Positions 30,922 to 49,804 of a stretch of DNA of 64,000 bases are shown here, one piece after another. This stretch comes from a virus. The stretch's first letter is position 1. The number at the start of each line of letters is the position of its first letter. The notes under the pieces were generated by a model. It ran no database searches. It saw nothing but the letters and a program-made list of their open reading frames with translations, and was not told the DNA's origin. Both the position numbers and the translations under genes were made by a program. The stretch is from positions 18,732-82,731 of the IMG/VR virus record IMGVR_UViG_3300013109_000059; one strand, written 5' to 3'.

Positions 30922-31269
30922 ATGGACGAAAGACTCGAGAAGGCACTAGAGTTTAGTAATTATGCTTTAACCATTAATAATCAAAAAAGAAATATTAGAA
31001 ATAGAGTTGCACAATTACAAATTGTACATCACTTAGGTGGTGTGTTTATTGCTAATCACGAAACAATTGCTTTTGTAAAGGCATTAATTGACTTAAAACA
31101 TAAGAATTCTGTTGTTATTGATAGTAAAAACAATCCTATTACAGTAAAAAGTTTAAAGGATTTACTAGAAAAACTTGTAGATGCATACACAAGTGCTACT
31201 ACTGAATTTGATATTGAGAACGAAAAACTTAAGAAAGCACGAAACATTAAGAAAATAATGGATTGGTAA
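30922..31269 (+). CDS. Conserved hypothetical protein, 115 aa
   Basis: This is a helical, charged, soluble protein (starts MDERLEKALEFSNYALTI) ending in a Lys-rich helix. I do not recognise a family. It is the first gene behind a consensus sigma70 promoter and is coupled to the first glycosyltransferase gene by a TAATG overlap. AAAGGAG is well placed before the ATG. Confidence 0.6.
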   Translation: MDERLEKALEFSNYALTINNQKRNIRNRVAQLQIVHHLGGVFIANHETIAFVKALIDLKHKNSVVIDSKNNPITVKSLKDLLEKLVDAYTSATTEFDIENEKLKKARNIKKIMDW

Positions 31270-32168
31270 TGGGAGAAATTCTTGCACCAAAGGGCATATG
31301 CTTCTTTGCCTATAACAATGATCAACTAGACTATGTAAAAATGGCACTTACCGCTGGTAAGTATGCTAAGAAAAATTTACATTTGCCTGTATGTTTAATT
31401 ACAGATGATGGTTCTGAAAGTTGGCTAACCGAAAGTCAACCCAAAAAACTTATTAAAGAAGTGTTTGATTACATTGTGATTACTAATGATAAGTTGAAAG
31501 AAAATCGCAGACGTCACTTTGATAGCCCGTGGTCGGAATTCGCTGCACAATTTAATAACAGTAACAAACATAAAATATATCAATACAGTCCATTTGAACA
31601 AACATTATTATTAGACATTGATTATATTGTAAAGACAGATGCATTATTAAAATACTTTGACAGCACCCATCCAGTATGTATGTTTGATAATGCATTAACT
31701 ATTAGAAACGAACTACCACTGTTACCTGAACGTTTCTTATATGATGCAGGAATTAAAATGTGGTGGAGTACTGTTGTTTATTTTGATCGTAGTGATTGGA
31801 GTAAATTATTTTTTGATACGTGGGCACACGTAGCTGATAACTATGAATTCTATCAGTACTTGTATAACTTTCCAAGTAAGTTATTCCGTACAGACTATTG
31901 TGTAAGCATAGCAGTGCATATACTTGGCGGTATGCAAGAAACTCAAGTATCTCTAGGTAACTTTGATGATACTCCTATAGTGAACATGAGTCAGAAAGAT
32001 GATATTATAGAAGCAAATGATATTAATGAATGGATAATGATTGCACATGATCAAAAAGAAGAATGGAAAAACATTTTAGTTAAAGTAGGTAAACAAGATA
32101 TACATGTTATGAACAAGAGAGCATTTGAAAGAGTAATTCCAAAGTTAATGGAGACATTAAATGGATAA
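31269..32168 (+). CDS. Glycosyltransferase-like protein (GT-A type), 299 aa
   Basis: The protein starts ICFFAYNNDQLDYVKMA and has LLLDIDYIV near residue 117, where the DxD motif of GT-A glycosyltransferases that binds the sugar nucleotide and metal is expected. The start at 31269 is chosen for its TAATG overlap with the preceding gene; a TTG two codons earlier is possible. It begins a series of sugar genes. Donor and acceptor are not known. Confidence 0.55.
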   Translation: MGEILAPKGICFFAYNNDQLDYVKMALTAGKYAKKNLHLPVCLITDDGSESWLTESQPKKLIKEVFDYIVITNDKLKENRRRHFDSPWSEFAAQFNNSNKHKIYQYSPFEQTLLLDIDYIVKTDALLKYFDSTHPVCMFDNALTIRNELPLLPERFLYDAGIKMWWSTVVYFDRSDWSKLFFDTWAHVADNYEFYQYLYNFPSKLFRTDYCVSIAVHILGGMQETQVSLGNFDDTPIVNMSQKDDIIEANDINEWIMIAHDQKEEWKNILVKVGKQDIHVMNKRAFERVIPKLMETLNG

Positions 32169-33012
32169 GGAAGATAGAGGCTATGTAATATTGGCTATGC
32201 AAGACTTTGAATATGAACAAGCCACTGCTCTTGCATATAGTATTAAGATACATAACAAAGATGCTAGTGTTACATTAGTAACTAACTATGTTGATCGTGT
32301 ACCACATCATTACGAAGAAGCATTTGATTATTTGGTCGACTTGCCGTACCCTAGCAACGATATTACTAGAGTAAATGATTGGCAATTATATTGGGCTACT
32401 CCATATGTACATAACATTGTAATTGATTGTGCAAGTCTTGTAAAAGAGAATCATGATAGTATTTGGGAATACTTGGAAGACCATTATGATATTTACTTTT
32501 TTAATCAATCATTTAATTTTAGAGGAACACAATTAGAAAACAAAACATTTAAATTACTTGAAGAAGAATATAAACTTAGTACAGTATACTCACATATGTT
32601 TTACTTTAAACACGATACGGATTTAGCACTTGCATTTTTTAAACTAGCTGACGTGTATATGCAGAACTGGAGAGAAATTTTTGCACATTATATAGGAGAA
32701 GCACACCGCCCAAGTACATATGTTAATGACATAATGTATAGTTTATTAAACACAATAATATTATTTGAACAGCCGGCATTGCATAACAACATTATAAACA
32801 CAATTAACATGCCAGCTACATTAATGGCAGGCGACATTGGGCAATGGGACAAATGGACTGATAGACTAAATGTTTGGAACAGCTATGGAGCAAAAGTAAA
32901 AATTCAAAACTTTGCAGTCGCTACCAATTTATATTATGGAGAACAAGAGTTCATGACGGAAGATATTTTTAATGGCCACCGAGACACTTATAGAGCAACA
33001 GCAAAACGTTAA
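32161..33012 (+). CDS. Glycosyltransferase-like protein, 283 aa
   Basis: The N-terminus (ILAMQDFEYEQATALAYSIK, then ASVTLVTNY) resembles the nucleotide-binding beta-alpha unit of the preceding protein and of the GT-A family. An IVIDCASLVK segment near residue 83 lies where the DxD motif would be, but has only one acidic residue, so activity is uncertain. It overlaps both neighbours (8 and 41 bases). It may be a paralogue of the preceding gene. Confidence 0.45.
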   Translation: MDKEDRGYVILAMQDFEYEQATALAYSIKIHNKDASVTLVTNYVDRVPHHYEEAFDYLVDLPYPSNDITRVNDWQLYWATPYVHNIVIDCASLVKENHDSIWEYLEDHYDIYFFNQSFNFRGTQLENKTFKLLEEEYKLSTVYSHMFYFKHDTDLALAFFKLADVYMQNWREIFAHYIGEAHRPSTYVNDIMYSLLNTIILFEQPALHNNIINTINMPATLMAGDIGQWDKWTDRLNVWNSYGAKVKIQNFAVATNLYYGEQEFMTEDIFNGHRDTYRATAKR

Positions 33013-33952
33013 ACGTTCTTACTTTATAGTATTTGATGAGAGCGGAAAGATACGTAAGATCAATAGCACCCCAATAACAAAGTTAAATGATAAAACATTA
33101 ACTCAAATTGAAAGTACTAATCCAGTCTGTAAAAAACTTATTAAGGGCGAGGTTGGTTTAAAGAAGTATGGAATTATATGGGACATACTTAATGAGAAAT
33201 GGGATATTGATCTTCGTCGTACTAAATTAGTGCTAGAGTTAAAGCATAATAAACTATTACCATTTGTATATGGAACTGATATAACAACTACAGAAATGTT
33301 TGTTAATATATTTTATAATGATAATGTTGCTGTAGTACAAGTCAATAAAGATAAAATTAAACGTATTAAAAATTTAAGTGATATAACAGAAATATCAACA
33401 CACGAAACAGAGTTACTAGATATATACATTACAAGAAAGAATGATCCAGATTATTTAATTACTGTACTTAAATTAGATCCATTAACTCTTTTTAGAACTG
33501 GGTTGCAAAAGATAGAACTTGGTATTACTGAACACGTAGACTGGCAAAATATTAGTATGTATACAAAGCCAGTGTTTAGTAATTATGGTTGGAATTTATT
33601 AGACTCTATGGCAGACGTTCCTATAATAACAAACACAGTTTTACAGAAATCAAATAACAAAGATAAAAATAACATAAATATTAACGTAGTAGATAATACT
33701 TTATATCTTAATAGTAAGTTAACTAAAGCACAAGAATATTATTTTGATGGACAGGCTGTACTACGTGTTGTTGTATGCGACCATACTCCAGATAACTTAG
33801 TAGGTGCGTTTGAGGTACCTGTTAAACTTTTATTAGATAATGAAGTAAGCACGACAACAATAAACTTTAAATGGCCTAAACAGCCATTGCTGTTATATAA
33901 AAATAATTATTTAACAGTTAGCACAGGAGATACACATGAGCAAAATGACTAG
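32972..33952 (+). CDS. Hypothetical protein, 326 aa
   Basis: I do not recognise this protein. It is mixed alpha/beta with a beta-rich C-terminal part and no signal peptide or membrane segment. It overlaps the previous gene by 41 bases and the next by 17 bases. Its position between glycosyltransferase-like genes suggests a role in the same pathway, or it may be a structural target of it. Confidence 0.5.
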   Translation: MATETLIEQQQNVKRSYFIVFDESGKIRKINSTPITKLNDKTLTQIESTNPVCKKLIKGEVGLKKYGIIWDILNEKWDIDLRRTKLVLELKHNKLLPFVYGTDITTTEMFVNIFYNDNVAVVQVNKDKIKRIKNLSDITEISTHETELLDIYITRKNDPDYLITVLKLDPLTLFRTGLQKIELGITEHVDWQNISMYTKPVFSNYGWNLLDSMADVPIITNTVLQKSNNKDKNNININVVDNTLYLNSKLTKAQEYYFDGQAVLRVVVCDHTPDNLVGAFEVPVKLLLDNEVSTTTINFKWPKQPLLLYKNNYLTVSTGDTHEQND

Positions 33953-34922
33953 CATTAATGAGTTTGATATTGTATTCATTAGCTATGACGAACCAAATGC
34001 AGACGAAAACTATAATGATTTAATTAACAAAGCACCGTGGGCTAAACGTAGTCATGGAGTATTTGGAAGTGATGCGGCACACAAGGCCGCGGCAGACTTA
34101 GCAGAAACAGATAGATTTATTGGAATTGATGCTGACAATATTGTACATGATGATTTCTTTGGTGTTGAAGTTGATATGAAAAAAGTTAGAGATACTGACG
34201 TTATTAGTTGGGCTGGAAAAAATATAGTTAATGGATTAGTATATGGCAACGGTGGGATTAAGTGTTGGCCTAAAGAAGTTGTGTATGGAATGCAAACACA
34301 TGAGAACGCACCTAAGGGTGACAAGAGAGCACAAGTAGACTTTTGTTGGAATATTAATTACGTGCAAATGAATAATATTTACTGTGATGTAATGAACAAT
34401 GCTAGTCCACTACAAGCGTGGCGAGCAGGTTTCCGTGAAGGTGTTAAGATGGGATTAGTTAATGGTGATGTTATTGATCCTTTACAACTTAGAGAAAAGG
34501 TACACGACAAGAATTATAAACGATTGCTTACATGGATGAGTGTTGGTGATGATTGCGAAAACGGACTGTGGGCTATTTACGGTGCAAGGTTAGGATGTCA
34601 TATGACAAACATTACTAGAGAAGATTGGGATTGGAAAAACGTTAGAGACTTTGATTGGCTAACTAAATTCTATCACAGTGATGTGTTACCAAACTTTGAA
34701 GAGAGTAGTGATCAACTTTGTCCACGTACTGGAATGAAATGGAATTATAAAACATTACAAGATGAAAGTAATAGACTTGGTTATGAGCTACGTTCTAAAT
34801 TAGATCTTGAAATTGCTGACTTAGGTAAAGAAGGCTCACGCTTCTTTAAGAAAGTATATATAAACCCTAGCAGAATGGGTGCTCAGATTAGAGAAGACCA
34901 AGTAGAAGATACATTGGAGTAA
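33936..34922 (+). CDS. Glycosyltransferase-like conserved phage protein, 328 aa
   Basis: The N-terminus FDIVFISYDEPNADENY is followed by RSHGVFGSDAAHKAAADLA and RFIGIDADNIV, a pattern typical of a GT-A family in marine phages in which DAD serves as the metal/nucleotide motif. The gene has AGGAG before the ATG and is followed after two bases by the first radical SAM gene. The acceptor is not known. Confidence 0.6.
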   Translation: MSKMTSINEFDIVFISYDEPNADENYNDLINKAPWAKRSHGVFGSDAAHKAAADLAETDRFIGIDADNIVHDDFFGVEVDMKKVRDTDVISWAGKNIVNGLVYGNGGIKCWPKEVVYGMQTHENAPKGDKRAQVDFCWNINYVQMNNIYCDVMNNASPLQAWRAGFREGVKMGLVNGDVIDPLQLREKVHDKNYKRLLTWMSVGDDCENGLWAIYGARLGCHMTNITREDWDWKNVRDFDWLTKFYHSDVLPNFEESSDQLCPRTGMKWNYKTLQDESNRLGYELRSKLDLEIADLGKEGSRFFKKVYINPSRMGAQIREDQVEDTLE

Positions 34923-34924
34923 TT

Positions 34925-36148
34925 ATGTCTAATACACGACAAAATCTGAGTCCAGGAGAATCATCAATTAGGTGGACAAAAGATCCTTTGTTTGGTAACG
35001 TATGGATTAAAGATACTACAGGACTAGACTTTGATGAAGATCCTGACTTGAGTGGTAAGTATTGTCAGAAACTTTACACATGGTTTGAGGTTGATACGTA
35101 TGGGAACGCCTGGATGTGTTGTCCTGCTTGGTTGCCTTATAGTATTGGTAATATATTAGAAAATAGCATAGAAGAACTTTGGAATGGCAAACGAGCACAG
35201 GAATTACGTAATCAAGTTTTTACTGGTAAGTGGAAATACTGTCAAGCTAGTTTTTGTCCATGGATACAAGGAGACCATCTTCCTGACATAAAAGATGTGT
35301 TATTAAAAGAAAACTCAACATTATATATTTCAGATGCAGAAATTAATGCATTACAAAATAAGTCATTAATATCTACACGATTGCCTACAAACATTAACTT
35401 TAGTAATGATGAGAGTTGTAACTTAAGGTGCCCAAGCTGTAGAATAGAAAAAATATTATACACCGAAGGACCATTATATAATAAACGAAAGAAAATTAAT
35501 GATAAAATTATTGAGACATTTTTAACAACACCAACAGACAGACATTTTAGTATTTTTGTAACTGGCAGTGGAGATCCATGGGCTAGTAAAATTTATAGAG
35601 AAATGTTGTATAACATAGACGGAAACGACTTTCCTAATCTCGGAATTAGTATGCAAACAAATGGTGTTATGTATACTCCTAAATTATGGAATCGTATTAG
35701 TAAGATACATAAAAATTTAAGAGACTGTCGTATTAGTTTTGATGCTGGAACTAAAGAAACATACGAACACAAAACAAGATTAAATGGAGATTGGGATTTA
35801 TTATTATCTAATTGTGATTTCTTAGATAAAAAAAGTAATGAGCTTTCTGGATTTAACATTCATTATGACTTTGTTGTACAGTATGACAACTACAAAGAAA
35901 TGAAAAGATATATAAGGCTTGTGCAAGAACGTTTTCCTAATCACGCAGATATTTGTTTTAGCTTGGTTGCCGATTGGGGCACATGGTCTGATACGTCTGC
36001 AGAAAATTATAACAGTAAATGTATATGGAAAAAAGATCATCCAGAGCATCAAAATTTTTTAAACATTTTAAAAGATCCTATATTTGATAGCAAAGGAGTT
36101 GTCTTAGGCAATTTAACATCAATGAGAAAGAAAGCGTTATCGCAATGA
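34925..36148 (+). CDS. Radical SAM protein with N-terminal SPASM-like cysteines (1 of 3 in tandem)
   Basis: The 4Fe-4S binding motif is C165-NLR-C169-PS-C172, the CX3CX2C signature of radical SAM enzymes that cleave S-adenosylmethionine to a 5-prime-deoxyadenosyl radical. Before it, residues 45-115 contain a second Cys set (YC, WMCCPAW, YCQASFC) with a GNILENSIEELWNG segment; this is the SPASM/twitch pattern, here N-terminal instead of C-terminal. Later parts (FVTGSGDPW, NIHYDFVVQYDNY) fit the barrel. GGAG precedes the ATG. The substrate is not known; SPASM enzymes often modify peptides or sugars. Confidence 0.75.
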   Translation: MSNTRQNLSPGESSIRWTKDPLFGNVWIKDTTGLDFDEDPDLSGKYCQKLYTWFEVDTYGNAWMCCPAWLPYSIGNILENSIEELWNGKRAQELRNQVFTGKWKYCQASFCPWIQGDHLPDIKDVLLKENSTLYISDAEINALQNKSLISTRLPTNINFSNDESCNLRCPSCRIEKILYTEGPLYNKRKKINDKIIETFLTTPTDRHFSIFVTGSGDPWASKIYREMLYNIDGNDFPNLGISMQTNGVMYTPKLWNRISKIHKNLRDCRISFDAGTKETYEHKTRLNGDWDLLLSNCDFLDKKSNELSGFNIHYDFVVQYDNYKEMKRYIRLVQERFPNHADICFSLVADWGTWSDTSAENYNSKCIWKKDHPEHQNFLNILKDPIFDSKGVVLGNLTSMRKKALSQ

Positions 36149-37626
36149 ATGAAAACGAATTAAAACATGCATTAGTTATGAAAGACCGACTTAATAAAGT
36201 TGGTTCGGGATTCTGTTTGGCTAAGTGGGATCAGGTAACAATGCATTTACATAATGGCATGACTCATAGTTGCCATCACCCAGCACCTCATAAGATACCG
36301 TTGATAGAGATTGAAAATAACTATAAAGCAATTCATAATAGTAAAGAAAAAATCAGTGAACGACAAGCAATGATAAACGGAGAACGTCCTAGCCCTTGTA
36401 ACTTTTGTTATAAAATGGAAGATAATAATTCTGAAGCAGTTAGTGATCGTTATCTCAAAAGTGCTAATCTATTTGAAAAGAGTTTTGATAAAATTGTTAA
36501 GAGCGGCACAGGAAAAGAATATGTTCCAGAGTATGTTGAGGTTAGTTTTAGTAATGTATGTAATTTAAAATGTACGTATTGTGGCCCACACTTTAGTAGC
36601 AAGTGGCAACAAGAACAAGAACAAGAAGAACCAATTATGTTACAAGATGAGCATGGACCTAATTGGGATTATCATAGTCTTGACTATCTTAAAAGCAAAG
36701 ACGAACTTCCTATACCACATAAAGATCATAATCCATATGTTGAAGCATTTTGGAAATGGTGGCCTGAATTAAGAAACAATCTTAAAACTTTACGTGTTAC
36801 TGGCGGCGAGCCTTTAATGGCAAAGGACACATTTAAACTTTTAAAAGAGTTAGAAAACATTCCAGCACCTGAAATGCAATTAGGAATAAACACAAATTTA
36901 AATGCTCCACAGAAAAATTGGGAACAACTAATAGACTTTATAAAGAAAAACGAACAGGAGAACCTTGTTAAGAAAATAACATTGTATACTAGTTTAGACG
37001 GATGGGGAGAACAGGCAGAGTATATACGTAGTGGATTAGATTTTAAATTGCTATGGGATAGATTGCTTTATATAATTGAAGAGCATCCTTCAGTAGACAA
37101 TACTATTATGACAGCGTACAGTGTATTAAGTTTACCAAGTTATAAAAAAATGCTTGAAGAAGTATTAGCTATAAAGAGAAAACATAATATGTATAACGGA
37201 GGTCTAGAAAGTAGATTCTATCAATACAAAAACTGGATGCAAGAAAATGGAAACGGTGATTTCTTTGTTAGAGGTGAAAAGCCATGTAGTGTACATATAG
37301 ATATTAGCCCTATACGTTTTCCTTGGTTTCTTAGTTTAGCAAGTGCCCCTAAAGAATTATCAATGCCTTATCTTTGGGATCAATATAAATTTATGATGGG
37401 AAATTTAACACTAGGCAACGACAACAGAAACTTTTATGACTTTGAAGCAGAAAAGATGGGTCGTGTAAATGACTTGGCTTTCTACAGAGAAATGTCAGAT
37501 AAATGGTCAAGAATTAACATGTCTAATTTTAGAAAGTATATTGATACAATAGACAAACGTAGAGGTACTAACTTTTGTAAAGTATTTCCTGAACTAGAAG
37601 AATACTACAGAGGTTGCAATGAATAA
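36145..37626 (+). CDS. Radical SAM protein (2 of 3 in tandem), 493 aa
   Basis: The cluster motif C139-NLK-C143-TY-C146-G is followed by FSSKWQQEQ, and TGGEPL near residue 225 gives the GGEP motif that binds the SAM amino group. An N-terminal Cys-rich segment (SCHHPAP near residue 44 and CNFCYK near 90) precedes it, as in the adjacent radical SAM proteins. It overlaps its neighbours by four and eight bases. The three proteins have the same layout, so duplication followed by divergence is likely. Confidence 0.8.
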   Translation: MNENELKHALVMKDRLNKVGSGFCLAKWDQVTMHLHNGMTHSCHHPAPHKIPLIEIENNYKAIHNSKEKISERQAMINGERPSPCNFCYKMEDNNSEAVSDRYLKSANLFEKSFDKIVKSGTGKEYVPEYVEVSFSNVCNLKCTYCGPHFSSKWQQEQEQEEPIMLQDEHGPNWDYHSLDYLKSKDELPIPHKDHNPYVEAFWKWWPELRNNLKTLRVTGGEPLMAKDTFKLLKELENIPAPEMQLGINTNLNAPQKNWEQLIDFIKKNEQENLVKKITLYTSLDGWGEQAEYIRSGLDFKLLWDRLLYIIEEHPSVDNTIMTAYSVLSLPSYKKMLEEVLAIKRKHNMYNGGLESRFYQYKNWMQENGNGDFFVRGEKPCSVHIDISPIRFPWFLSLASAPKELSMPYLWDQYKFMMGNLTLGNDNRNFYDFEAEKMGRVNDLAFYREMSDKWSRINMSNFRKYIDTIDKRRGTNFCKVFPELEEYYRGCNE

Positions 37627-38908
37627 AATTTTTGATATTATTAATAACAATGCTTCTGAAAAAGAAATTATAAAACAAACAGAAAGTTATTGCCCATTGC
37701 CGTGGAGCCACTTACATGTCAGTGCAAGTGGTGATGTGCTTCCTTGTTGCATAGGGCAATGGAAAATGCCATTGGGAAATATAAACAAACAAAGTTTTGA
37801 TGACATATGGCAAGGTGATGAAATTAATAAAATACGCAAGGCACTTGTAGATGATAAGAAAGTACCTCAATGCAGTACGTGTTACTTAAAAGAAAAGGAT
37901 AGTGGATTTAGTTTACGGCATGATGCTATTGCGAAGTTTCATAATGTAAGTAAGGACATGGTACTTAGTACTAATGAAGATGGGTCGGCTCCTGATGCAC
38001 GTCCAGTGTATTGGGATATTAGGTTCAGCAATATATGTAATATGCGTTGTAGAATGTGTGGACACTTTAGTAGTAGTAAATGGTATGCTGATGCTAAAAA
38101 GTTAGCAGACGATGGCATATACAATTATGGCACTGATAAAGATCAAGCTATAATACATGGTGTGGAAGATAGTGAAAAATTATTAACCAGGTTAGAAGAG
38201 TATTTGCCTTACGTGCAAGAGTTATACTTTGCAGGAGGTGAGCCACTGTTTATGGAAGAACATTATACTATATTGAATAAACTTATTGAGATGGGGATAA
38301 CAGATGTGTTCATTCGTTATAGCTCTAACCTTAGTATAATGAAATATAAAAATACAAATGTAGTAGACTTATGGAAACATTTTAGTAATGTTTATTGTGC
38401 AGGCAGTATAGATACATACGGTGCTCGTGCAGAAAACATACGCAAGGATACAGTGTGGTCTGAGATAGAAGATAATATGAGACTAATAAAAACAACAGCA
38501 CCAAAAGTTTGGCTAGGCATTAGTCCTACAATACAAATTATGAATGCATATACAGTATGTGAATTAAACGAGCAATGGATTAGTAATGGTTGGTTAAATC
38601 GTTGGACTATGTATTGGAATATTTTATCCAGCCCTAGTTTTTATAATATACAACACTTACCAGATCATATGAAACAAGAGCTTATAGAGATATGGACTAA
38701 GCATTTGAAATGGCTTAAGATTAAAAAAAATAGTCCAGTTCATCACACAGTTAATGCTACTATTAAGTGGATGCTTAGTGGAAAACACAATCCAGAAGAG
38801 TTGATTAAAATGTGCGACCACACCAAACGTATTGACAAGTTGCGTAATGAAGATACACGTTCAGTTTTTCCAGAGCTTAATTATATATGGGAAAACTATT
38901 GGGAATGA
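37619..38908 (+). CDS. Twitch-type radical SAM protein (3 of 3 in tandem), 429 aa
   Basis: C140-NMR-C144-RM-C147-G is the radical SAM motif; FAGGEPLFMEEH near residue 208 is the GGEP motif. The N-terminal segment YCPLPWSHLHVSASGDVLPC followed by CSTCYLKEK is a clear SPASM/twitch domain with auxiliary-cluster cysteines, again before the barrel. The protein resembles a family known in marine T4-like phages whose substrate has not been found. ATGA-type overlap couples it to the next gene. Confidence 0.8.
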   Translation: MNKIFDIINNNASEKEIIKQTESYCPLPWSHLHVSASGDVLPCCIGQWKMPLGNINKQSFDDIWQGDEINKIRKALVDDKKVPQCSTCYLKEKDSGFSLRHDAIAKFHNVSKDMVLSTNEDGSAPDARPVYWDIRFSNICNMRCRMCGHFSSSKWYADAKKLADDGIYNYGTDKDQAIIHGVEDSEKLLTRLEEYLPYVQELYFAGGEPLFMEEHYTILNKLIEMGITDVFIRYSSNLSIMKYKNTNVVDLWKHFSNVYCAGSIDTYGARAENIRKDTVWSEIEDNMRLIKTTAPKVWLGISPTIQIMNAYTVCELNEQWISNGWLNRWTMYWNILSSPSFYNIQHLPDHMKQELIEIWTKHLKWLKIKKNSPVHHTVNATIKWMLSGKHNPEELIKMCDHTKRIDKLRNEDTRSVFPELNYIWENYWE

Positions 38909-40134: not shown

Positions 40135-40145
40135 CATAGGAGTAA

Positions 40146-41505: not shown

Positions 41506-42242
41506 TGGAAAGACAAAGCCGTAAGTATAAAAATGATTATAGAGATTTGAGTTATCGTTGGCAAGACGAACTTAAATCTATAGACAACGAAGAATGGAAA
41601 AAAGAAATTGCATACAACTGTAGTCCATTTACTGTTACGCAATTGCCAGCAGTTTTAGATTTAATAGATACAGTTGAAGATATTATATTAAATGACATAC
41701 CAGGAGACTTTGTAGAATGCGGAGTCTTTATGGGCGGCAGTTGTATGATCATAGCTGAGGTTTTAAAACATTATAATGTTAATCGTACTATATGGCTTTT
41801 CGATACATTTGATGGAGTACCTATGCCGAGTGAACATGATGTTACTCCTGAAGGCGAAAGTTTAAAGGATTGGTATAAGAATAAAAAATTAGATACTAAT
41901 AATAAAAGCACATGGTGTTATTCTGCATTAGATGATATAAAAGAAAACTTTACAGAATGTAATTATAAAGGTGATACAAAATTTATAATAGGCAAAGTAG
42001 AAGATACTATACCTAATAATGCTCCTGATAACATTTCTCTTTTAAGAATAGATGTTGATCTTGCAGAGTCAACAAGACATGTATTAAATCATTTGTATCC
42101 AATACTAGTTACAAACGGACATTTAATTTTAGATGACTATGGACATTTTCCTGCTGTTAAAGAAACAGTAGATGATTATTTTAAAAATGATCCTAAGACA
42201 TTACAAGAAATTACATATACAGTTAGGCATATAATAAAATGA
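41505..42242 (+). CDS. TylF-like O-methyltransferase
   Basis: Residues 65-105 contain GDFVECGVFMGGS and IWLFDTFDGVP, the SAM-binding motifs of the TylF/macrocin O-methyltransferase family, and LLRIDVDLAESTRHVL with LILDDYGHFP follow in the expected order. These enzymes methylate sugar hydroxyls. The start at 41505 gives a TAATG overlap; a start four codons upstream at 41493 is possible. Confidence 0.85.
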   Translation: MERQSRKYKNDYRDLSYRWQDELKSIDNEEWKKEIAYNCSPFTVTQLPAVLDLIDTVEDIILNDIPGDFVECGVFMGGSCMIIAEVLKHYNVNRTIWLFDTFDGVPMPSEHDVTPEGESLKDWYKNKKLDTNNKSTWCYSALDDIKENFTECNYKGDTKFIIGKVEDTIPNNAPDNISLLRIDVDLAESTRHVLNHLYPILVTNGHLILDDYGHFPAVKETVDDYFKNDPKTLQEITYTVRHIIK

Positions 42243-43030
42243 AAATAGGATTAATAGGATTAGGTGTTGTAGGCAAAGCCTGTAAAGAAGGCTTTGAACA
42301 TTGTGGCTACAATGTAGTTGCACACGACATAGCACTTGATACAAAAATAGAAGATGTATTAGAAACTGAGATTACATATCTTTGTGTTCCTACACCTACT
42401 AATGACAAAGGCGAATGTGACACTAGTATTATTGAAAGTGTTATTCATGAGTTAAGGCAGTTAAAATATAAAGGCGTTATAGCAATTAAGTCAACTGTTG
42501 AGCCTGGAACAACAGCAAGGTTAATAAAACAGTACGATGATAAAATTGTATTTGTTCCTGAGTTTCTTAAAGAACGTAGTGCAGAATATGATTTTATATT
42601 TGACCACAGACTGTTATTAGTAGGAACAGAAAACGTAAACTATTATTATCTAGTACAGCGTTCACATGGTAAGTTACCAGATGACATAATGAGAGTGCCA
42701 CCAACAGAAGCAGAACTAATGAAATACTATCACAACACATTCAATGCATTACGTGTAGTATTTGCAAATGTAATGTTTGAGATAAGTGATAAACTTAATG
42801 TGTCATATGATACAGTGAAAGAAGCATTTTTAAAGAACAGCGATTTACCTGATGAGTATCTTGATGTTAAACCTGAACTGCGAGGATACGGTGGTGCTTG
42901 TTTACCTAAAGATGTTTTAGCAATGAACAACGCATGTAAAAAATTAGGAATACCAAACAAGTTGTTTGAGTATATTGATAAAGAAAATAAACTATTTAAG
43001 AAAACAGTATTCAAAGGAATGAGACTATAG
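42239..43030 (+). CDS. UDP-glucose/GDP-mannose 6-dehydrogenase-like, short form
   Basis: The N-terminal GLIGLGVVG binds NAD; CVPTPT, KSTVEPGT, KYYHNTFNALRVVFAN and GYGGACLPKD (catalytic Cys at residue 221) follow the order of nucleotide-sugar dehydrogenases, which oxidise C6 to a uronic acid. At 263 residues it lacks the usual third, UDP-binding domain (family length about 390-450). It may use another substrate or be a compact phage version. Overlaps TylF by four bases. Confidence 0.8.
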   Translation: MKIGLIGLGVVGKACKEGFEHCGYNVVAHDIALDTKIEDVLETEITYLCVPTPTNDKGECDTSIIESVIHELRQLKYKGVIAIKSTVEPGTTARLIKQYDDKIVFVPEFLKERSAEYDFIFDHRLLLVGTENVNYYYLVQRSHGKLPDDIMRVPPTEAELMKYYHNTFNALRVVFANVMFEISDKLNVSYDTVKEAFLKNSDLPDEYLDVKPELRGYGGACLPKDVLAMNNACKKLGIPNKLFEYIDKENKLFKKTVFKGMRL

Positions 43031-43689
43031 TGAGTTATTTAGAAGACAATAAAGAAAATGTATATTTTAATAATGATGCTAATCTGTTTTGGGGGGTCAT
43101 AGAACATTTTAGACACAGTGATAATAACCGTCTTTGTATCGATATTGGCACATTTTATGGAGGCTATGCAGAGAGATATGTATCTTTATTTGAAAACGTA
43201 GTTTGTTTTGAAGCTAATTATTATATTGAAAAAGATTTAAGAAATAGAATGGCTAAAACAAAACATGATAATTATAAAATTTATATGAATGGACTAGGCA
43301 AACCCGAAGACCATAACACTGAAAAGTTGTTCTATGCAGTTACTTGGGCGCCTCCTCACAATACACGTTGGAGTGGCATCAGCAGTTACAAAAGCGATCA
43401 CTTCACAAACTGGCCCGAGAAAGAAGTGAACATAACTGAAATTACTACTACGGTTAGGACATTAGATAGCTATAACCTAGCACCTAGTTTTATTAAAATG
43501 GATGTAGAGAATTCAGAATCAGATGTTATTATGGGTGGAATAGAAACTATATCAAAGCATAAACCCACACTACAAGTAGAAGGCAAAGGAAGTATAGAAT
43601 TAATAAAAAGTTTAGGATATCGTTTAGTAGCTCAACGAAAATGTCATGGCGCACTACACGATAATATATATGTATATGGACAAATGTAA
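43030..43689 (+). CDS. FkbM-family methyltransferase
   Basis: The GTG start overlaps the preceding stop (TAGTG). LCIDIGTFYGGYAERY is the SAM-binding loop, VVCFEAN the second motif, and VRTLDSYNLAPSFIKMDVEN followed by KPTLQVEGK is the FkbM C-terminal pattern. FkbM enzymes methylate sugars and polyketides. Length 219 residues is normal for phage members. Confidence 0.8.
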   Translation: MSYLEDNKENVYFNNDANLFWGVIEHFRHSDNNRLCIDIGTFYGGYAERYVSLFENVVCFEANYYIEKDLRNRMAKTKHDNYKIYMNGLGKPEDHNTEKLFYAVTWAPPHNTRWSGISSYKSDHFTNWPEKEVNITEITTTVRTLDSYNLAPSFIKMDVENSESDVIMGGIETISKHKPTLQVEGKGSIELIKSLGYRLVAQRKCHGALHDNIYVYGQM

Positions 43690-44050
43690 AATACTTACAG
43701 CAGATTTATTTGAAGATGAAAGAGGAACTACTCGTAGTTTCTATCCTGACGAAGATATTGTAGAGTATAATCTAATGATTACTAAAAAGGGCGATGCTCG
43801 TGGTTATCATTATCATCCACACTTTGTTGAGTATATGATTATAGTAGATGGTGAATGTTTGTTTAAAGAGTACAGCGATAGTATACATGAAACAGTGCTA
43901 ACCGAAGGCGACAGTATACGTATACCTAGTGGCACAGCACACACGTTTATAGCATTAACAGACTTTAAGTTTGTTAGTATGCTTACAAAAAGGTGGCACG
44001 ATAGCGACCCGCCAATAGTAAAGGTAGATGAATATGGCAAACCCATTTGA
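43676..44050 (+). CDS. WxcM/FdtA-like sugar cupin (dTDP-sugar isomerase/epimerase-like)
   Basis: The 124-residue product is a single cupin: RGYHYHPHFVEYMIIVDGE holds the metal/substrate histidines and RIPSGTAHTFIAL the second motif. It resembles dTDP-4-dehydro-6-deoxyhexose isomerases (FdtA/QdtA) and RmlC. The next gene is a DegT-type aminotransferase, and the 3,4-ketoisomerase plus aminotransferase pair is the known route to 3-amino-3,6-dideoxy sugars. ATG at 43676 is chosen because it lies at the point where homology begins; it overlaps the methyltransferase by 14 bases. Confidence 0.7.
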   Translation: MDKCKILTADLFEDERGTTRSFYPDEDIVEYNLMITKKGDARGYHYHPHFVEYMIIVDGECLFKEYSDSIHETVLTEGDSIRIPSGTAHTFIALTDFKFVSMLTKRWHDSDPPIVKVDEYGKPI

Positions 44051-44642
44051 TACAGTACATAAGTTTGAGAGAGTAGTTGCAGATTATTCTGGTGCTCCTT
44101 ATGCTATTGCTACTGATTGTTGTAGTCATGCTATATTCTTAAGTGCAATATACTACAAACAAAAACACGGAACATGCACAGTTACAATGCCCAAGAACAC
44201 ATATGTAAGTGCGCCTGTGCAAATGATACACGCTGGATTTGATGTAGAGTTTGTAGACAAACAATGGTCAGGTGTGTATAAGATTAACCCAACAAACATT
44301 ATAGATGGTGCTCCTAGGTTTACATATAATATGTATATCAAGGGAAGTTATCATTGTTTAAGTTTTCAATTTAAGAAAATATTAAGCACAGGCAGAGGCG
44401 GAATGATACTAACAGACGATGAAGAGTTTTATGAGTGGGCTCAACGTGCAATACACGATGGAAGAGATATGAGTATACCATATGAAGAAGATACTGTTAC
44501 TATGCTGGGCTATCATATGTTTATGACTCCTGAAGTTGCACAAATTGGATTAGATAAGATGAGAACTATGCCACGTATCAATAGTGATGTTGCAACCAAC
44601 AACACTTATCCTGATATTAGTTATATAAAAGATTTCAAATGA
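44034..44642 (+). CDS. Short DegT/DnrJ/EryC1-type aminotransferase-like protein
   Basis: The start region YSGAPYAIATDCCSHAIFLS and the later SFQFKKILSTGRGGMILTDD match the substrate-loop and PLP-lysine regions of sugar aminotransferases (the lysine pair in FKK includes the expected Schiff-base Lys). With 202 residues it is about half the family length; the central and C-terminal parts are reduced. It may be a compact functional enzyme or need a partner. It overlaps the cupin gene by 17 bases and follows it directly, consistent with an amino-sugar step. Confidence 0.7.
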   Translation: MANPFDTVHKFERVVADYSGAPYAIATDCCSHAIFLSAIYYKQKHGTCTVTMPKNTYVSAPVQMIHAGFDVEFVDKQWSGVYKINPTNIIDGAPRFTYNMYIKGSYHCLSFQFKKILSTGRGGMILTDDEEFYEWAQRAIHDGRDMSIPYEEDTVTMLGYHMFMTPEVAQIGLDKMRTMPRINSDVATNNTYPDISYIKDFK

Positions 44643-45598
44643 GAATACATTTTAAAAGTGGAATAGTAGAAATAGAATTACTAGACAACGAGTTTGTAAC
44701 ACAATGGCACAACACTGTTAGCAAACTACAGCCTATAGAAACTTGGAATGAAAACTTAATTCCAAAAGTAACTATTAGTGATGAAGAAGTTTTTCGTATA
44801 CGTTCTACGTATGTACCAAAGTTTAATGCTCATGTTAAAGAATTAAAAGACAAATATGGTTTAGAGTTTCCAGGAGAAATGGAATTAAATATGAAACAAG
44901 AGCGTCTTAATTTATTGCACAAGTGGGTAACACACGGTGCATTTACAAAGACTAATTGGGATTTGCCAAATGCTACTGTAGAAGATATTAATAACAGTAA
45001 ATGGAATCATTGGCAAGACTATAACTTCGCAACTGATCATGAACCAGAGTTTGAAGTTCCTGTAGATGCTATTGATGACATTACACATATATTATTTGAA
45101 ATGAACTGTGATATACACTGGTATGAAGAAACAATTACAAGTCCTAGAGTACAACAATTATATGATTGGGGTTACAATTATAATGATGGTAACCATATTA
45201 TACAACGATACACTAGTGGTGCAGACAGAGCATTTGATGTAGTTGATATACCTAACGAGTATAGAAAGTTATGTACATATGACACAGAGCCAGACTTATG
45301 GTTACCATTTGCAGTTCTAGGAAAAGAATATTATACGTGTTGGGTTAATATGGATAACCCTAGCCAGTTTGATATAACAAACATTGATAAAACATATTGT
45401 CCAGGTTGGGAATTACAACCTAATGCGTTTACTAATAAAGTATTAGCACATGATGAGTTTCAATATTGGTTAACACAGCACGGCGTGCCAACGGATGCAT
45501 TTTGTATTGCTAAGATGCCATTAGGAAAATGTATTAATAAAGAACAATTAAATTTTAATCAAATATTATTAGAGCCAGTACAACATGTTGAATGGTAA
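44639..45598 (+). CDS. Hypothetical protein, 319 aa
   Basis: No family is recognised. It is soluble, rich in Trp, His and acidic residues (for instance NNSKWNHWQDYNFATDHEPE), without membrane segments. ATGA and 14-base overlaps with the neighbours place it firmly in the sugar operon. It could be a hydroxylase-like or oxygenase-like cupin given its H and D content, but I cannot assign metal ligands. Confidence 0.5.
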   Translation: MRIHFKSGIVEIELLDNEFVTQWHNTVSKLQPIETWNENLIPKVTISDEEVFRIRSTYVPKFNAHVKELKDKYGLEFPGEMELNMKQERLNLLHKWVTHGAFTKTNWDLPNATVEDINNSKWNHWQDYNFATDHEPEFEVPVDAIDDITHILFEMNCDIHWYEETITSPRVQQLYDWGYNYNDGNHIIQRYTSGADRAFDVVDIPNEYRKLCTYDTEPDLWLPFAVLGKEYYTCWVNMDNPSQFDITNIDKTYCPGWELQPNAFTNKVLAHDEFQYWLTQHGVPTDAFCIAKMPLGKCINKEQLNFNQILLEPVQHVEW

Positions 45599-46178
45599 GA
45601 AAAACATTGTAATAGTAACGCCTGCTAGAAGCGGAAGTAGTTGGCTAGTCAGTTCGTTTGGTAGAGAAAATTATAACGAGCAACCTCTTAGTCTAAGTGA
45701 AACAAACAATGATAAGAAACTAAGTTTACAACAAAGAATAGATATACTAAACTCTAATAAGCCTTTTGTAACAAAAGTGTTTACTGATGAAATGATTGAC
45801 TTGGAATTATTAAAGGATGATGATGTTGAATTTATATGGTTGTATAGACGTAACCTTGTTGAACATTTTTTAAGCAATGTACTTGCTTGGCGAACACAAG
45901 TGTTTAATGTACACCAGCACGAATGGTACTGGCCTCCTACAACACTTAATATAACAGATGATGATTTAAATATATATGAGAACATTGTTAAGTGTCAAAA
46001 GAAAGCATATAAAAAATACAAGGATTGGTTTACATATGAAATTGCATACGAGGATTTGTTTACTAACAATCCGTGGAATTTCAAATCAACAGACGACAAG
46101 ACTGTTAAGTTAAATCATTATTCAGATGAATGGATTGCGTTAGCAACTAATAAACTACAAGAGAGAAATATAATATGA
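45585..46178 (+). CDS. Sulfotransferase-like protein
   Basis: The N-terminal IVIVTPARSGSSWLVSSF is the 5-prime-phosphosulfate loop of PAPS-dependent sulfotransferases, and FIWLYRRNLVEHFLSNV near residue 85 matches the 3-prime-phosphate binding segment (RxxxxxxxS). At 197 residues it is small, like Stf0-type and phage members. It would place a sulfate on a sugar or on protein Tyr. A kinase that could supply PAPS is encoded at 62.8 kb. Confidence 0.75.
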   Translation: MLNGKKNIVIVTPARSGSSWLVSSFGRENYNEQPLSLSETNNDKKLSLQQRIDILNSNKPFVTKVFTDEMIDLELLKDDDVEFIWLYRRNLVEHFLSNVLAWRTQVFNVHQHEWYWPPTTLNITDDDLNIYENIVKCQKKAYKKYKDWFTYEIAYEDLFTNNPWNFKSTDDKTVKLNHYSDEWIALATNKLQERNII

Positions 46179-47365
46179 GACAAGTAAAAAAAGTAAACGT
46201 ATGCCGTAGTTGTGGTTACGATAACATGCCTACAGTATTTGATATGGGTGACTTAAAAATTAATGCATTTATGAAAGAGCCTAACACTGATGTAGGTACT
46301 GCACCACTTACACTTGTGCATTGTCCTGAGTGTGACTTAATACAACTAGACCATACAGTACGTGAGCAAGAGTTATATGAAAACTATTGGTACTTGTCAA
46401 GACTAAACAAAAAGATTGTTGACAATTTAGAAAGCATTACTAAAGCAGTAACTATTAATGACGGAGATATTGTACTAGACATTGGTGCTAATGATGGAAC
46501 CCTATTAAGTTTTTATCCTGACACAGTTACTCGTGTTGGATGTGATCCTGCTAAAAATATTCATAACGAATTAGTTAAGCATACTGACATTATGATACCA
46601 GACTTCTTTAATTGGGATAACTGGATTAGACATGTAGGTTTAACTCGTCGTGCTAATGTAATTACTACAGTAGCTATGTTCTATGACTTAGACGATCCTA
46701 ATGCATTTGTGCAAGACATTGTTCGTGTATTAAGTAAAGACGGTGTGTGGCTATGTCAACTTATGACGGCTCGTCCTATGCTAGACAGTAACGACCTTGG
46801 AAATATTATACACGAACACATAGAGTATTACAGTTACAAGAGCTTAGTAACATTAATGGAAAGACATGGGCTTGAGATATATAAGGTACGTGAGAATGAT
46901 ATCAACGGAGGTAGCTATCAGTTATTCATTAGACATTACAATACTGGCAGTGTAGACTTCCAAGAAGATATTAGTAGTGAACGTATCAGTGCTTGGGCAG
47001 ATAACATTGCAACGAATCGTACAGACACTATGGAGTTTATTCATAGAGAAGTTGCTAATGGTAAAAAGATTTACATAATGGGTGCTAGTACTAAAGGCAA
47101 TACTATTATGCAGTACTATGGATTAGATAGTGATACTATTACTGGAGCGGCTGAAATACATCCAGACAAGGTTGGAAAGTATTTAGTAGGAAGTAGTATT
47201 CCTATTGTACACGAAGATGATGCAAAGAAAGATGCAGACTATTTTCTAGTGTTCCCATTTCATTTTAAAGAATTATTTGTAAACAAGATTATGAAAGACT
47301 GGATAGCTGAAGGTGGACAACTAATATTCTGCACACCAAAGTTTGAGGTAGTTGGTAATGAGTAA
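46175..47365 (+). CDS. Nucleotide-sugar C-methyltransferase (TylCIII/NovU-like)
   Basis: Three domains are visible: an N-terminal zinc-binding domain (CRSCG at residue 10, CPECDLIQL near 50), a central SAM-binding domain (VLDIGANDGTLLSFY) and a C-terminal Rossmann-like domain (KIYIMGASTKGNTIMQYY). The conserved active-site HEHIEYYSYKSL is present near residue 210. This family puts a methyl branch on C3 of dTDP-4-keto-6-deoxy sugars. Full family length (396). Overlaps neighbours by 4-8 bases. Confidence 0.9.
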   Translation: MRQVKKVNVCRSCGYDNMPTVFDMGDLKINAFMKEPNTDVGTAPLTLVHCPECDLIQLDHTVREQELYENYWYLSRLNKKIVDNLESITKAVTINDGDIVLDIGANDGTLLSFYPDTVTRVGCDPAKNIHNELVKHTDIMIPDFFNWDNWIRHVGLTRRANVITTVAMFYDLDDPNAFVQDIVRVLSKDGVWLCQLMTARPMLDSNDLGNIIHEHIEYYSYKSLVTLMERHGLEIYKVRENDINGGSYQLFIRHYNTGSVDFQEDISSERISAWADNIATNRTDTMEFIHREVANGKKIYIMGASTKGNTIMQYYGLDSDTITGAAEIHPDKVGKYLVGSSIPIVHEDDAKKDADYFLVFPFHFKELFVNKIMKDWIAEGGQLIFCTPKFEVVGNE

Positions 47366-48080
47366 AATAGTATTAGCCACAGGTGGGTTTGATCCACTGC
47401 ATGGTGGACACATAGAATACTTTGAAGCGTCTAAGAAGTTAGGTGACAAACTAATTGTAGGTATTAATTCTGATGAGTGGTTAGAACGTAAGAAGGGTAA
47501 AGCATTTATGCCTTGGAACGAACGTGTTAAAATTATAAACAACTTGCAAATGGTAGACGAAGTATTTACATTCATGGATGACGATGACTCTGCGATTAAC
47601 TTTATAAAACAAGTTAAGGCACACTATCCTTACGATCAACTAATCTTTGCTAATGGTGGAGATAGAACTGCAGACAACATTCCAGAAATGATATTTAATG
47701 ATGTTGAATTTGTATTTGGTGTTGGTGGTACTAATAAAATAAATTCTTCTAGTACTATTGGCAGGGTTCAAAGAAATTGGGGTTGGTACAAAATATTATA
47801 TAATGCAATGACTACAAAGGTAAAAGAATTACAAATAGAACCTGGACAGTCAATAAGTGTACAACGTCATTCTAAACGAAATGAATTTTGGTTTGTAGTT
47901 AAGGGAGAATGTACTGCAAATAAAGATGATAAGTCTGTTATACTAACAGCACACAAACAATTTACTGTACCAACTAATACTTGGCACACTTTATATAATC
48001 ATACAAACAAACCTTGTAACATAGTAGAAATACAATATGGAGAGTGTTGTGAGGAATCGGACATCGAACGTTTAGAATAA
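47358..48080 (+). CDS. Cytidylyltransferase-cupin fusion protein
   Basis: Residues 1-130 form a TagD/HldE-type nucleotidyltransferase (TGGFDPLHGGHIEYF near residue 9, SSSTIGR near 135), and residues about 145-235 form a type-2 mannose-6-phosphate isomerase-like cupin (QSISVQRHSKRNEFWFVVKG, PTNTWHTLYN). This joins activation of a sugar or alcohol phosphate to a possible isomerisation. The ATG at 47358 overlaps the stop of the C-methyltransferase. The fusion is not a common bacterial arrangement as far as I know. Confidence 0.8.
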   Translation: MSKIVLATGGFDPLHGGHIEYFEASKKLGDKLIVGINSDEWLERKKGKAFMPWNERVKIINNLQMVDEVFTFMDDDDSAINFIKQVKAHYPYDQLIFANGGDRTADNIPEMIFNDVEFVFGVGGTNKINSSSTIGRVQRNWGWYKILYNAMTTKVKELQIEPGQSISVQRHSKRNEFWFVVKGECTANKDDKSVILTAHKQFTVPTNTWHTLYNHTNKPCNIVEIQYGECCEESDIERLE

Positions 48081-48091: not shown

Positions 48092-48691
48092 ATGATAGAT
48101 ACTATAATATTTGACTTAGACGGAACGTTAGCAGACTGTAAAGAGTTACATCAGATTGCTTTCCGAGATGCTGTTATGGCATTATGCCCAACTGCAAAAT
48201 ATGAAGACGAAGACATAGAAGGTAGACCAACACGTGAGAAGATACGTATACTACACACAATGGGTTATGAGTTTAACGGTGACAAGTTAAACGAGATTAA
48301 ACAAGCACAAACACAAGACCGCTTAGAAGAATATGTGAAGTACAACGAACCGTTATGTAACGAAATGCTACGACTACAAAAGAAATATAAACTATGTTGT
48401 GCAAGTAATGCTACTGCTAATTTTGTACATAGAGCTTTAAAGATTATGCAACTACATCATAGAGGCGATGGGAATCAAGTGTTCACAAAGATTAATACTG
48501 CTACAGACTTTCCAGCAAAGCCAGACACAACAACATTCTTTGATTGTATGCGTTGGACAAAGAGTACACCAGATAATACTATTATATTTGAAGATTCAAT
48601 TGTAGGTATACAATGTGCATTGGCTACAGGTTGTACAACTATACGAGTAGTTGATGTAGCACATACAATTGAAGAAATGAGGAAACTATGA
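48092..48691 (+). CDS. HAD-superfamily phosphatase (beta-phosphoglucomutase-like)
   Basis: Motif I IIFDLDGTLAD (residues 5-15), motif II CASNAT near residue 111, motif III Lys in FPAKPD, and motif IV IIFEDSIVGI near residue 170 are all present. The enzyme should remove or move a phosphate on a sugar, as GmhB does in heptose activation. The 199-residue length fits the family. ATGA overlap with the next gene. Confidence 0.85.
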   Translation: MIDTIIFDLDGTLADCKELHQIAFRDAVMALCPTAKYEDEDIEGRPTREKIRILHTMGYEFNGDKLNEIKQAQTQDRLEEYVKYNEPLCNEMLRLQKKYKLCCASNATANFVHRALKIMQLHHRGDGNQVFTKINTATDFPAKPDTTTFFDCMRWTKSTPDNTIIFEDSIVGIQCALATGCTTIRVVDVAHTIEEMRKL

Positions 48692-49389
48692 AATTAATAA
48701 TGCCAATGGCAGGACTAGGCAGTCGCTTTACAGAACAAGTTAAACCTTTAATACCTGTAGGAGATGTTCCTATGTTTGTACATAGCGAACGTTGCATTGA
48801 ACTAGACTTTGACGAACGTATATTTATTGTACGCAAAGAACATGATATTAAAGCAAGAGTTCTTGAATGGTATCCTGATGCAACTGTAATTGAATTAGAT
48901 TACTTGACAGAAGGCACAGCATGTACTATACTAACAGCACGTGAACATTATGAAGATGGTAGTAGTATCTTTGTTGCTAATTGTGATCAGCATATAGAAT
49001 GGGATAGTGATTGGGCTCAGGCTATAATTGATTCAGGTGTTCCTGGATTAATACCTAACTTTCATTGTCCAGGTGGCAGTAAGAAGTGGAGTTATGCAAT
49101 GGTAGACGATAGACAAAACATTAAACGTGTAGCTGAAAAGGATCCTATTAGCGAATGGGCAACTGTAGGTTATTACTATTGGAAAGACGGAAGACAATTT
49201 ATACAAAGTGTTGATATGATGATGGAAGCTAACGATAGAGTTAATAATGAATTTTATACTTGTCCAGTATACAACTACACATTAAAGATACCAGGCATAG
49301 GTAATGTCAAACACATAGAAGTAGATGTTATGCAAGGTATTGGTACTCCAGAAGACTTAAAAGAATATGAAACAATTTATTGCACATAG
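48688..49389 (+). CDS. Sugar-phosphate nucleotidyltransferase
   Basis: MPMAGLGSRFTEQVKPLIPV at the N-terminus is the NTP-binding signature of sugar nucleotidyltransferases (GxGxR...KP). ANCDQHIEW near residue 93 provides the metal-binding Asp. With 233 residues it lacks the C-terminal beta-helix of longer members. It would activate a sugar phosphate for the pathway. Confidence 0.85.
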   Translation: MKLIMPMAGLGSRFTEQVKPLIPVGDVPMFVHSERCIELDFDERIFIVRKEHDIKARVLEWYPDATVIELDYLTEGTACTILTAREHYEDGSSIFVANCDQHIEWDSDWAQAIIDSGVPGLIPNFHCPGGSKKWSYAMVDDRQNIKRVAEKDPISEWATVGYYYWKDGRQFIQSVDMMMEANDRVNNEFYTCPVYNYTLKIPGIGNVKHIEVDVMQGIGTPEDLKEYETIYCT

Positions 49390-49804
49390 AGGAAACACAG
49401 AAGGACCACAACCTGAGTTTGAGAATACTATTGAATACTTAAACCACGCATATGATTTGTGTGGTGGTATTGAATGTGATATACGAACCTACAATGGCAA
49501 ACTATATTACGGACACGACGAACCAATAGAGTTAGTAGATACAAATCTCATTAGACAATATCATTGGTTCTGTCATGCTAAAGATTTAGAATCCCTATCA
49601 ACATTAATAGCATTTGGAGCAAATACATTTTGGCATCAAAAGGATACAGTTACAATTACTACTAAAGGATACATTTGGTGTTACCCACACGTACATCTAC
49701 AAGACTCACACAGAGCTATCTGGACTGACTTTGATGATGAGTTTACTAGTATGGATCAGATTGGTGGGTGGGGATTATGCAGTGACCGTCTACCAACTAG
49801 TTAA
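49367..49804 (+). CDS. Glycerophosphodiester phosphodiesterase-like protein (GDPD), short
   Basis: FIAHRGN (residues 4-10) with FENTIEYLN, IECDIR (residues 36-41) and YGHDEP give the His, Glu-x-Asp and His active-site set of GDPD-type TIM barrels. At 145 residues it covers only about half of a normal barrel (about 250), as in other phage members. It overlaps the nucleotidyltransferase by 23 bases and ends the long plus-strand operon, meeting a convergent minus-strand gene. Confidence 0.7.
   Translation: MKQFIAHRGNTEGPQPEFENTIEYLNHAYDLCGGIECDIRTYNGKLYYGHDEPIELVDTNLIRQYHWFCHAKDLESLSTLIAFGANTFWHQKDTVTITTKGYIWCYPHVHLQDSHRAIWTDFDDEFTSMDQIGGWGLCSDRLPTS

Follow-up and report, generated by a model that had tools for sequence, protein, structure and literature searches.

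A conserved six-gene core predicted to make a C-methylated aminosugar, and its linked radical SAM genes, in the glycan island of a T4-like phage

The stretch of DNA analysed here (the window, 64,000 nucleotides) covers positions 18732-82731 of the 82,731-base virus record IMGVR_UViG_3300013109_000059 and contains a long run of genes for sugar-modifying and radical S-adenosylmethionine (SAM) enzymes. The phage is T4-like: its record, in which terminal repeats are absent, encodes a major head protein of T4 type, a portal protein, tail fibres and a baseplate wedge as well as SbcCD-like proteins. The portal protein is nearest, by sequence match without phylogeny, to those of the jumbo T4-like phages Phosso (53%), Atu_ph07 and PA5oct. 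A second contig (L006, from G001; 123,388 bases) is 99.96% identical to window positions 27619-47481 and reaches further upstream. Twenty-three plus-strand open reading frames (ORFs) follow one another between 30922 and 49804, preceded on the same strand by genes for virion structural proteins and for the baseplate wedge (14447). Nineteen of their 22 junctions overlap and the remaining three gaps measure 2, 11 and 11 nt; all minus-strand ORFs in this interval encode 104 aa or fewer. This bears out a preliminary description, made from the sequence alone, which had noticed about 20 consecutive and mostly overlapping genes. The run is confirmed as real and not a product of chance, because orthologues stay together in many other contigs and the closest pairs give a ratio of nonsynonymous to synonymous substitution (dN/dS) of about 0.03-0.16.

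Pfam and NCBIfam support the assignment of three radical SAM proteins, a short-chain dehydrogenase/reductase (SDR), a TylF O-methyltransferase, a short UDPG/MGDP dehydrogenase, an FkbM methyltransferase, a cupin, a short DegT aminotransferase, a C-methyltransferase, a cytidylyltransferase with a PMI cupin, a HAD protein and an NTP transferase. For these enzymes the functions listed in the preliminary description were largely right; its glycosyltransferases, sulfotransferase and GDPD were read from motifs only, and it omitted an AhpC/TSA thioredoxin-like gene (40993-41505). Six genes of the run form what we call the core:

40146..41009, plus strand: SDR, with the UDP-glucuronate decarboxylase UXS1 as nearest solved structures
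40993..41505, plus strand: thioredoxin-like AhpC/TSA protein, with CxxC and two more invariant cysteines
42239..43030, plus strand: nucleotide-sugar dehydrogenase of 263 aa that lacks the C-terminal UDP-binding domain
43646..44050, plus strand: cupin resembling sugar ketoisomerases/epimerases (Cap5F C-domain, RmlC)
44028..44642, plus strand: 204-aa short DegT (mini-DegT) aminotransferase
46175..47365, plus strand: C-methyltransferase sharing its three Pfam domains with sugar 3-C-methyltransferases

We recruited IMG/VR loci with the C-methyltransferase, short DegT and short dehydrogenase as queries. The presence of these three genes is therefore partly by construction; that of the SDR, TSA, cupin and radical SAM genes is independent of recruitment. 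Merging of near-identical contigs reduced the sample of 28 to 20 groups, the window's own phage being one of them. The complete core was found in 16 of the 20. Two other groups (6793 and 28844) are represented by contigs that end just after the C-methyltransferase, and two (37285 and 47667) possess the SDR, dehydrogenase, C-methyltransferase and cupin genes without TSA and mini-DegT. Genes for radical SAM proteins of the N_Twi type lie near the core in all groups except one, a 7.2-kb locus. The preliminary description had allowed that the set might not be kept together in any relative; this did not occur, and its proposal that a phage operon serves the synthesis of a nucleotide sugar with a C-methyl and an amino group is supported. 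Genes for TylF, FkbM, the sulfotransferase-like protein, the 44639 protein and the TagD-cupin are variably present. With the sulfotransferase-like gene absent from 14 of the 20 groups, a central place for sulfation is not supported; it belongs to the periphery together with O-methylation. Among the most similar pairs dN/dS ranges from 0.03 to 0.16 in DegT and from 0.05 to 0.09 in the dehydrogenase, values that are rough because several dS estimates are saturated. Both short enzymes are under strong purifying selection.

The core DegT protein scores 67.8 bits against PF01041 (gathering threshold 19.8) and measures 200-223 aa among all relatives. It spans Pfam positions ~22-94 and 163-242 of 360, so that inner (~95-162) and C-terminal (243-360) segments of the fold are missing; it is therefore a half-size relative and not a standard member of the DegT family. 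The pyridoxal phosphate (PLP) lysine K117 and D93 are invariant in 13 diverged mini-DegT sequences and align with 7b0m; K117 aligns, in addition, with the full-length DegT that a sister phage encodes. The structure predicted from 13 sequences (pLDDT 78, pTM 0.81) matches DegT aminotransferases with a TM-score of 0.60 by query and ~0.35 by target, and a fold search among viral models matched only longer aminotransferases. The best evidence on function comes from the two groups without mini-DegT (37285 and 47667). There, a full-length DegT takes its place, directly upstream of the cupin gene; the full-length DegT of contig L097 has 361 aa and scores 217 bits. Since the full-length enzyme stands in when mini-DegT is absent, the two would perform the same step.

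Outside phages mini-DegT is rare, with five loci in a collection of 84,980 genomes at the sensitivity of the pattern used. Among 297 and 301 genomes sampled from the two families concerned, half-size whole-profile matches occurred only in the seed genomes. The bacterial genomes with such loci are metagenome-assembled or similar drafts, and the loci may be phage-derived or accessory islands. Cultured phages carry mini-DegT at 36-41% identity. On a contig binned as Chloroflexi (L033:7989-11491), genes for mini-DegT, a carbamoyltransferase and a tryptophan-halogenase-like protein follow in succession, and similar DegT-carbamoyltransferase pairs are found in L063, L065 and L066.

The short dehydrogenase matches PF03721 (NAD-binding) and PF00984 (central) above cut-off. 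Its residues E108, K162, N166 and C221 are invariant across 13 diverged sequences, and comparison with 3gg2 shows that the catalytic E, K, N and C and the KD motif are kept. A second, longer dehydrogenase (~407 aa or fused) accompanies the short one in L095, L090, L050 and L097. The C-methyltransferase matches PF08421, PF13489 and PF08484 (Zn-binding, SAM and C-terminal domains) above cut-off, and its best PDB match, over residues 5-393 and thus end to end, is the D-mycarose 3-C-methyltransferase 4rv9 (4e-46). Relatives of the TSA protein, in which all four cysteines are invariant, are 2ywi, 3u5r and 2cvb, proteins without a clear assigned role.

Taken together, a UXS-like SDR, a mycarose-type C-methyltransferase, a cupin, a DegT protein and a dehydrogenase suggest oxidation, decarboxylation, isomerisation, C3-methylation and amination. 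We propose with moderate confidence that the core makes a nucleoside diphosphate (NDP)-linked, probably UDP-linked, 3-C-methyl-branched aminosugar as part of a phage glycan island. The short dehydrogenase and the UXS1-like SDR would yield a 4-keto sugar, in the preferred reading from UDP-glucuronate by decarboxylation and hence a pentose. The cupin would isomerise or epimerise it, the TylC3-like enzyme would methylate C3 beside the ketone, and mini-DegT would aminate the ketone. The product is thus likely a 3-C-methyl, NDP-linked sugar, either an amino pentose made via UDP-glucuronate or a deoxyhexose. Peripheral O-methyltransferases, possible sulfotransferases and carbamoyltransferases could vary the decoration between phages, and the putative transferases and N_Twi radical SAM block may transfer the sugar or modify it further. 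The analysis shows which genes are present and to which families they belong, that catalytic residues are conserved, that the genes are kept together and that they are under purifying selection; the substrates, order of reactions, carrier, radical SAM chemistry and acceptor are inferred. This reading is favoured by the position of the island, which adjoins genes for the baseplate and virion structure, like the host recognition cluster of pelagimyophages (PMC7029224).

Several points weigh against it. The enzyme activities are putative and the pathway as a whole is predicted from sequence. Nearly half of the complete DegT fold (~360-390 aa) is gone from mini-DegT. The short dehydrogenase ends after its central domain, without the PF03720 UDP-binding domain; because this domain is gone and several relatives possess a separate 407-aa dehydrogenase, it may use another substrate, and its role is the least certain step of the pathway. 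UXS enzymes normally yield UDP-xylose and do not release the 4-keto intermediate. Glycosyltransferase identity, considered below, is putative and based on a motif, and the region yielded no recognisable flippase, polymerase or ligase. The claim that the operon encodes a complete route is not supported.

The sugar could instead be a 6-deoxyhexose of the mycarose or vancosamine type, in which a 4,6-dehydratase-type SDR would give an NDP-4-keto-6-deoxy-hexose; isomerisation, 3-C-methylation and amination would follow. The substrates of characterised C-methyltransferase homologues are 6-deoxy sugars, and NCBIfam hits of the SDR include LegB and dTDP-glucose 4,6-dehydratase (1e-18 to 4e-17), although these remain below cut-offs; no equivalog cut-off was reached for any SDR type. 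However, four UXS1 sequences head the PDB matches of the SDR (4e-32), ahead of other enzymes. In addition, its S/T-S-E, YxxxK and Arg are invariant or nearly so, with a Ser-Glu pair (S96 and E97, both invariant) in 12 of 12 sequences, where RmlB has a catalytic Asp-Glu (T-D-E); Ser thus replaces the catalytic Asp. A dehydrogenase as part of the core also argues against a deoxyhexose, which we consider a serious alternative, if a less probable one than the pentose.

Upstream of the core lie the radical SAM genes, and a fourth is found outside the operon:

34925..36148, plus strand: radical SAM 1, N-terminal SPASM/twitch protein with invariant CxxxCxxC, a remote N_Twi_rSAM relative
36145..37626, plus strand: radical SAM 2, N_Twi_rSAM (NF033640, 302 bits), the most widely kept of the three
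37619..38908, plus strand: radical SAM 3, N_Twi_rSAM (NF033640, 374 bits)
60939..61610, plus strand: a fourth radical SAM protein (223 aa), encoded beyond the operon

The curated NF033640 cut-off of 170 bits is not reached by the 34925 (46 bits) and 60939 (35 bits) proteins. Twitch cysteines C25, C44, C85 and C88 and the CxxxCxxC cysteines C140, C144 and C147 are invariant in 23 sequences. With flanking genes described below, the radical SAM genes form a second module, 33936 - [34925] - 36145 - [37619] - 38887. This module lies upstream of the core and in the same direction in L080, L084 and L092, and downstream in opposite direction in L050, L087, L096, L097 and L098. That core and module stay together through rearrangement speaks for a functional link between them.

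Most SPASM radical SAM enzymes of known function act on peptides, and the radical SAM genes might likewise modify peptides, or serve Fe-S metabolism, and merely share a variable island with the sugar genes. Their copy number varies from 2 to ~20 per contig (~20 matches in one of 342 kb and 17 in one of 151 kb). Moreover, a set of 12 radical SAM genes in the marine T4-like virus TARA_ERS488813_N000010, which resembles the present phage in this multiplicity, was read by its authors as related to Fe-S metabolism (PMC5332604), and the passage on it describes no link to a sugar core. Yet the set of radical SAM 2, 38887 and 33936 stays beside the core in both orientations, and in the cultured Synechococcus phage S-SCSM2R (PQ898602.1) a radical SAM gene sits inside a glycosyltransferase run; we think it unlikely that these genes stand outside the sugar route. 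Radical SAM matches number ~20, 17, 20 and 13 in G005, G007, G008 and G016, the contigs behind L046, L060, L083 and L070, respectively. Downstream of the core in L092, positions 17807-19882 encode a radical SAM protein of 691 aa that carries a B12-binding domain.

The 5′ part of the run and the end of the radical SAM block encode orphan proteins and putative glycosyltransferases:

30922..31269, plus strand: 115-aa orphan ORF, opening the run
31263..32168, plus strand: putative GT-A type glycosyltransferase matching no family; homologues share its DID motif
32161..33012, plus strand: protein of uncertain function, distantly related to that of 31263, with the acidic motif not conserved
32972..33952, plus strand: fast-diverging orphan protein
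33936..34922, plus strand: putative GT-A type glycosyltransferase with invariant DAD motif, anchoring the glycosyltransferase-radical SAM block
38887..40134, plus strand: 415-aa orphan, ending that block

A syntenic homologue of the 30922 protein (58%) adjoins a 31263 homologue in another contig. None of the 31263, 32161, 33936 and 38887 proteins has a match in Pfam, PHROG or NCBIfam, and a DxD-type motif is present in 31263 and 33936 only. No convincing PDB match was obtained for 33936 and 38887; the 38887 profile did hit de novo TIM barrels, but we dismissed these as chance matches. Nor did profile comparison with annotated cyanophage glycosyltransferases give a match. The three to four glycosyltransferases announced in the preliminary description were thus not recognisable in the Pfam, PHROG, PDB and INPHARED searches made; that 38887 is a glycosyltransferase is possible, though unproven.

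The product would most likely decorate the infected-cell surface, a virion tail protein being a less likely acceptor. In the latter case the operon would modify a tail- or baseplate-associated protein, such as that of 32972 or the 3464-aa protein, and so change adsorption or shield the particle. The run does follow the structural genes, and no membrane export genes were recognised. In relatives, the 32972 protein lies between two glycosyltransferase-like genes and diverges to 22-28% identity among syntenic homologues, compared with 60-70% for the 33936 protein; it is possibly a virion component or acceptor. It lacks, however, a structural annotation, and relatives point to envelope chemistry: the genome of S-SCSM2R has KdsA/KdsB-type genes, and relatives in Vibrio phage K566 lie near PagP. 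Virion glycosylation is therefore, in our view, a doubtful alternative to modification of the cell surface. In K566, a 255-kb phage from a cultured collection, it is a radical SAM cluster (L010:20004-30466) that is found near the PagP gene, for lipid A acylation. The 3464-aa ORF occupies 17630-28024, and its residues 1-1457 match the virion structural protein family phrog_10938.

It is improbable that mini-DegT and the short dehydrogenase have given up catalysis and serve as scaffolds or regulators: large parts of both canonical folds are missing and the mini-DegT model is a moderate-confidence one with a partial fold match, but the catalytic residues are invariant across the 13 diverged sequences, purifying selection is strong and a full-length aminotransferase substitutes where mini-DegT is absent. 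A more far-reaching proposal, which we put forward only tentatively, is that the half-fold mini-DegT works as a PLP sugar aminotransferase, along with a dehydrogenase devoid of its nucleotide-binding domain, in a phage-specific route to a new branched aminosugar, which dedicated N-terminal-twitch radical SAM enzymes would alter further.

The remaining genes of the run, and a carbamoyltransferase gene downstream, are as follows:

41493..42242, plus strand: TylF-type O-methyltransferase, periphery
43030..43689, plus strand: FkbM-type methyltransferase, periphery, present in only one other contig
44639..45598, plus strand: 319-aa protein of unrecognised fold, a frequent neighbour with several paralogues in relatives
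45585..46178, plus strand: sulfotransferase-like protein, PxRSGSSWL motif only, periphery
47352..48080, plus strand: fusion of a cytidylyltransferase-like domain with a PMI-type cupin, mobile in the islands
48092..48691, plus strand: HAD phosphatase
48688..49389, plus strand: sugar nucleotidyltransferase-like protein
49367..49804, plus strand: short GDPD-like protein, HRG...EN...ECD...GHD motif by eye
58595..60109, plus strand: carbamoyltransferase, outside the operon

No library supports the functions given to the sulfotransferase-like (45585) and GDPD-like (49367) proteins, which are read from their motifs; the latter has no Pfam match and falls in PHROG 34507 (function not assigned). Structure prediction of unrecognised members, which the preliminary description had suggested, gave for 44639 a model (mean pLDDT 71) whose fold search found no PDB match with E <0.001. 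Homologues of the carbamoyltransferase recur in relatives near the core or adjoining mini-DegT; this gene and the fourth radical SAM gene lie beyond the interval first delimited. The T4 late promoter core TATAAATA occurs once in window positions 1-64000 where ~17 are expected from shuffles, so expression timing is not deducible from late promoters. Scans for sigma-70 promoters and terminators stayed at background level, and an Rfam search of the window gave no match. Between the operon and the carbamoyltransferase gene, 49817-58595 has few long ORFs, raised GC, altered GC skew and short palindromic repeats (CGTTGCATACGTATGCAATA) without an Rfam match.

Radical SAM genes in such phage islands have already been reported (PMC7029224 and PMC5332604) and one is annotated in S-SCSM2R, so that the supposed absence of any such description needs qualifying. 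The pelagimyophage host recognition cluster lies among the structural genes of T4-like marine phages and is hypervariable; it holds lipopolysaccharide and sugar genes, glycosyltransferases and radical SAM gene cassettes, and host-surface change against coinfection was proposed for it (PMC7029224). It is defined as the island between VrlC and neck genes in T4-like phages of SAR11; here the run follows baseplate and structural genes, VrlC and neck were not located, and the portal match is to jumbo T4-like phages. The present island differs in its fixed six-gene branched-aminosugar core with mini-enzymes, aminotransferases and methyltransferases not being mentioned in the main text of that paper. 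S-SCSM2R has an annotated glycosyltransferase run and a short DegT (41% identical), with the radical SAM gene between the short DegT and a glycosyltransferase. Unlike here, its radical SAM protein is annotated as SkfB/NifB/PqqE family, a longer UDP-glucose dehydrogenase lies elsewhere in the genome, and no C-methyltransferase is annotated in the genome regions examined. The TylC3 and TcaB9 pathways (mycarose, tetronitrose) share the three-domain C-methyltransferase and the logic of cupin epimerase and aminotransferase, but are actinomycete antibiotic pathways with full-length enzymes and dTDP-sugars, whereas the genes here belong to a phage and include those for a UXS-like SDR and a short dehydrogenase. 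In amination of the UDP-4-keto-pentose by ArnA/ArnB, a decarboxylating SDR acting on UDP-glucuronate is likewise followed by a DegT-family aminotransferase; however, ArnB is full length and C-methylation does not occur. A search of a literature collection for truncated DegT proteins, or for a core making C-methyl aminosugars in phages, found nothing relevant there. The new elements are the conserved core with its mini-enzymes and the linkage of this core to blocks of radical SAM genes.

This linkage places the numerous N_Twi radical SAM genes found in marine phages in a functional setting. Phage sugar islands are known mostly as mixed gene lists, and a fixed core across some twenty lineages makes a specific product predictable and testable. 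Laboratory systems with a short DegT exist in S-SCSM2R on Synechococcus WH7803 and the immuto phages on Flavobacterium LMO8. Half-size catalytic folds under strong selection would, in addition, be a useful case of enzyme miniaturisation.

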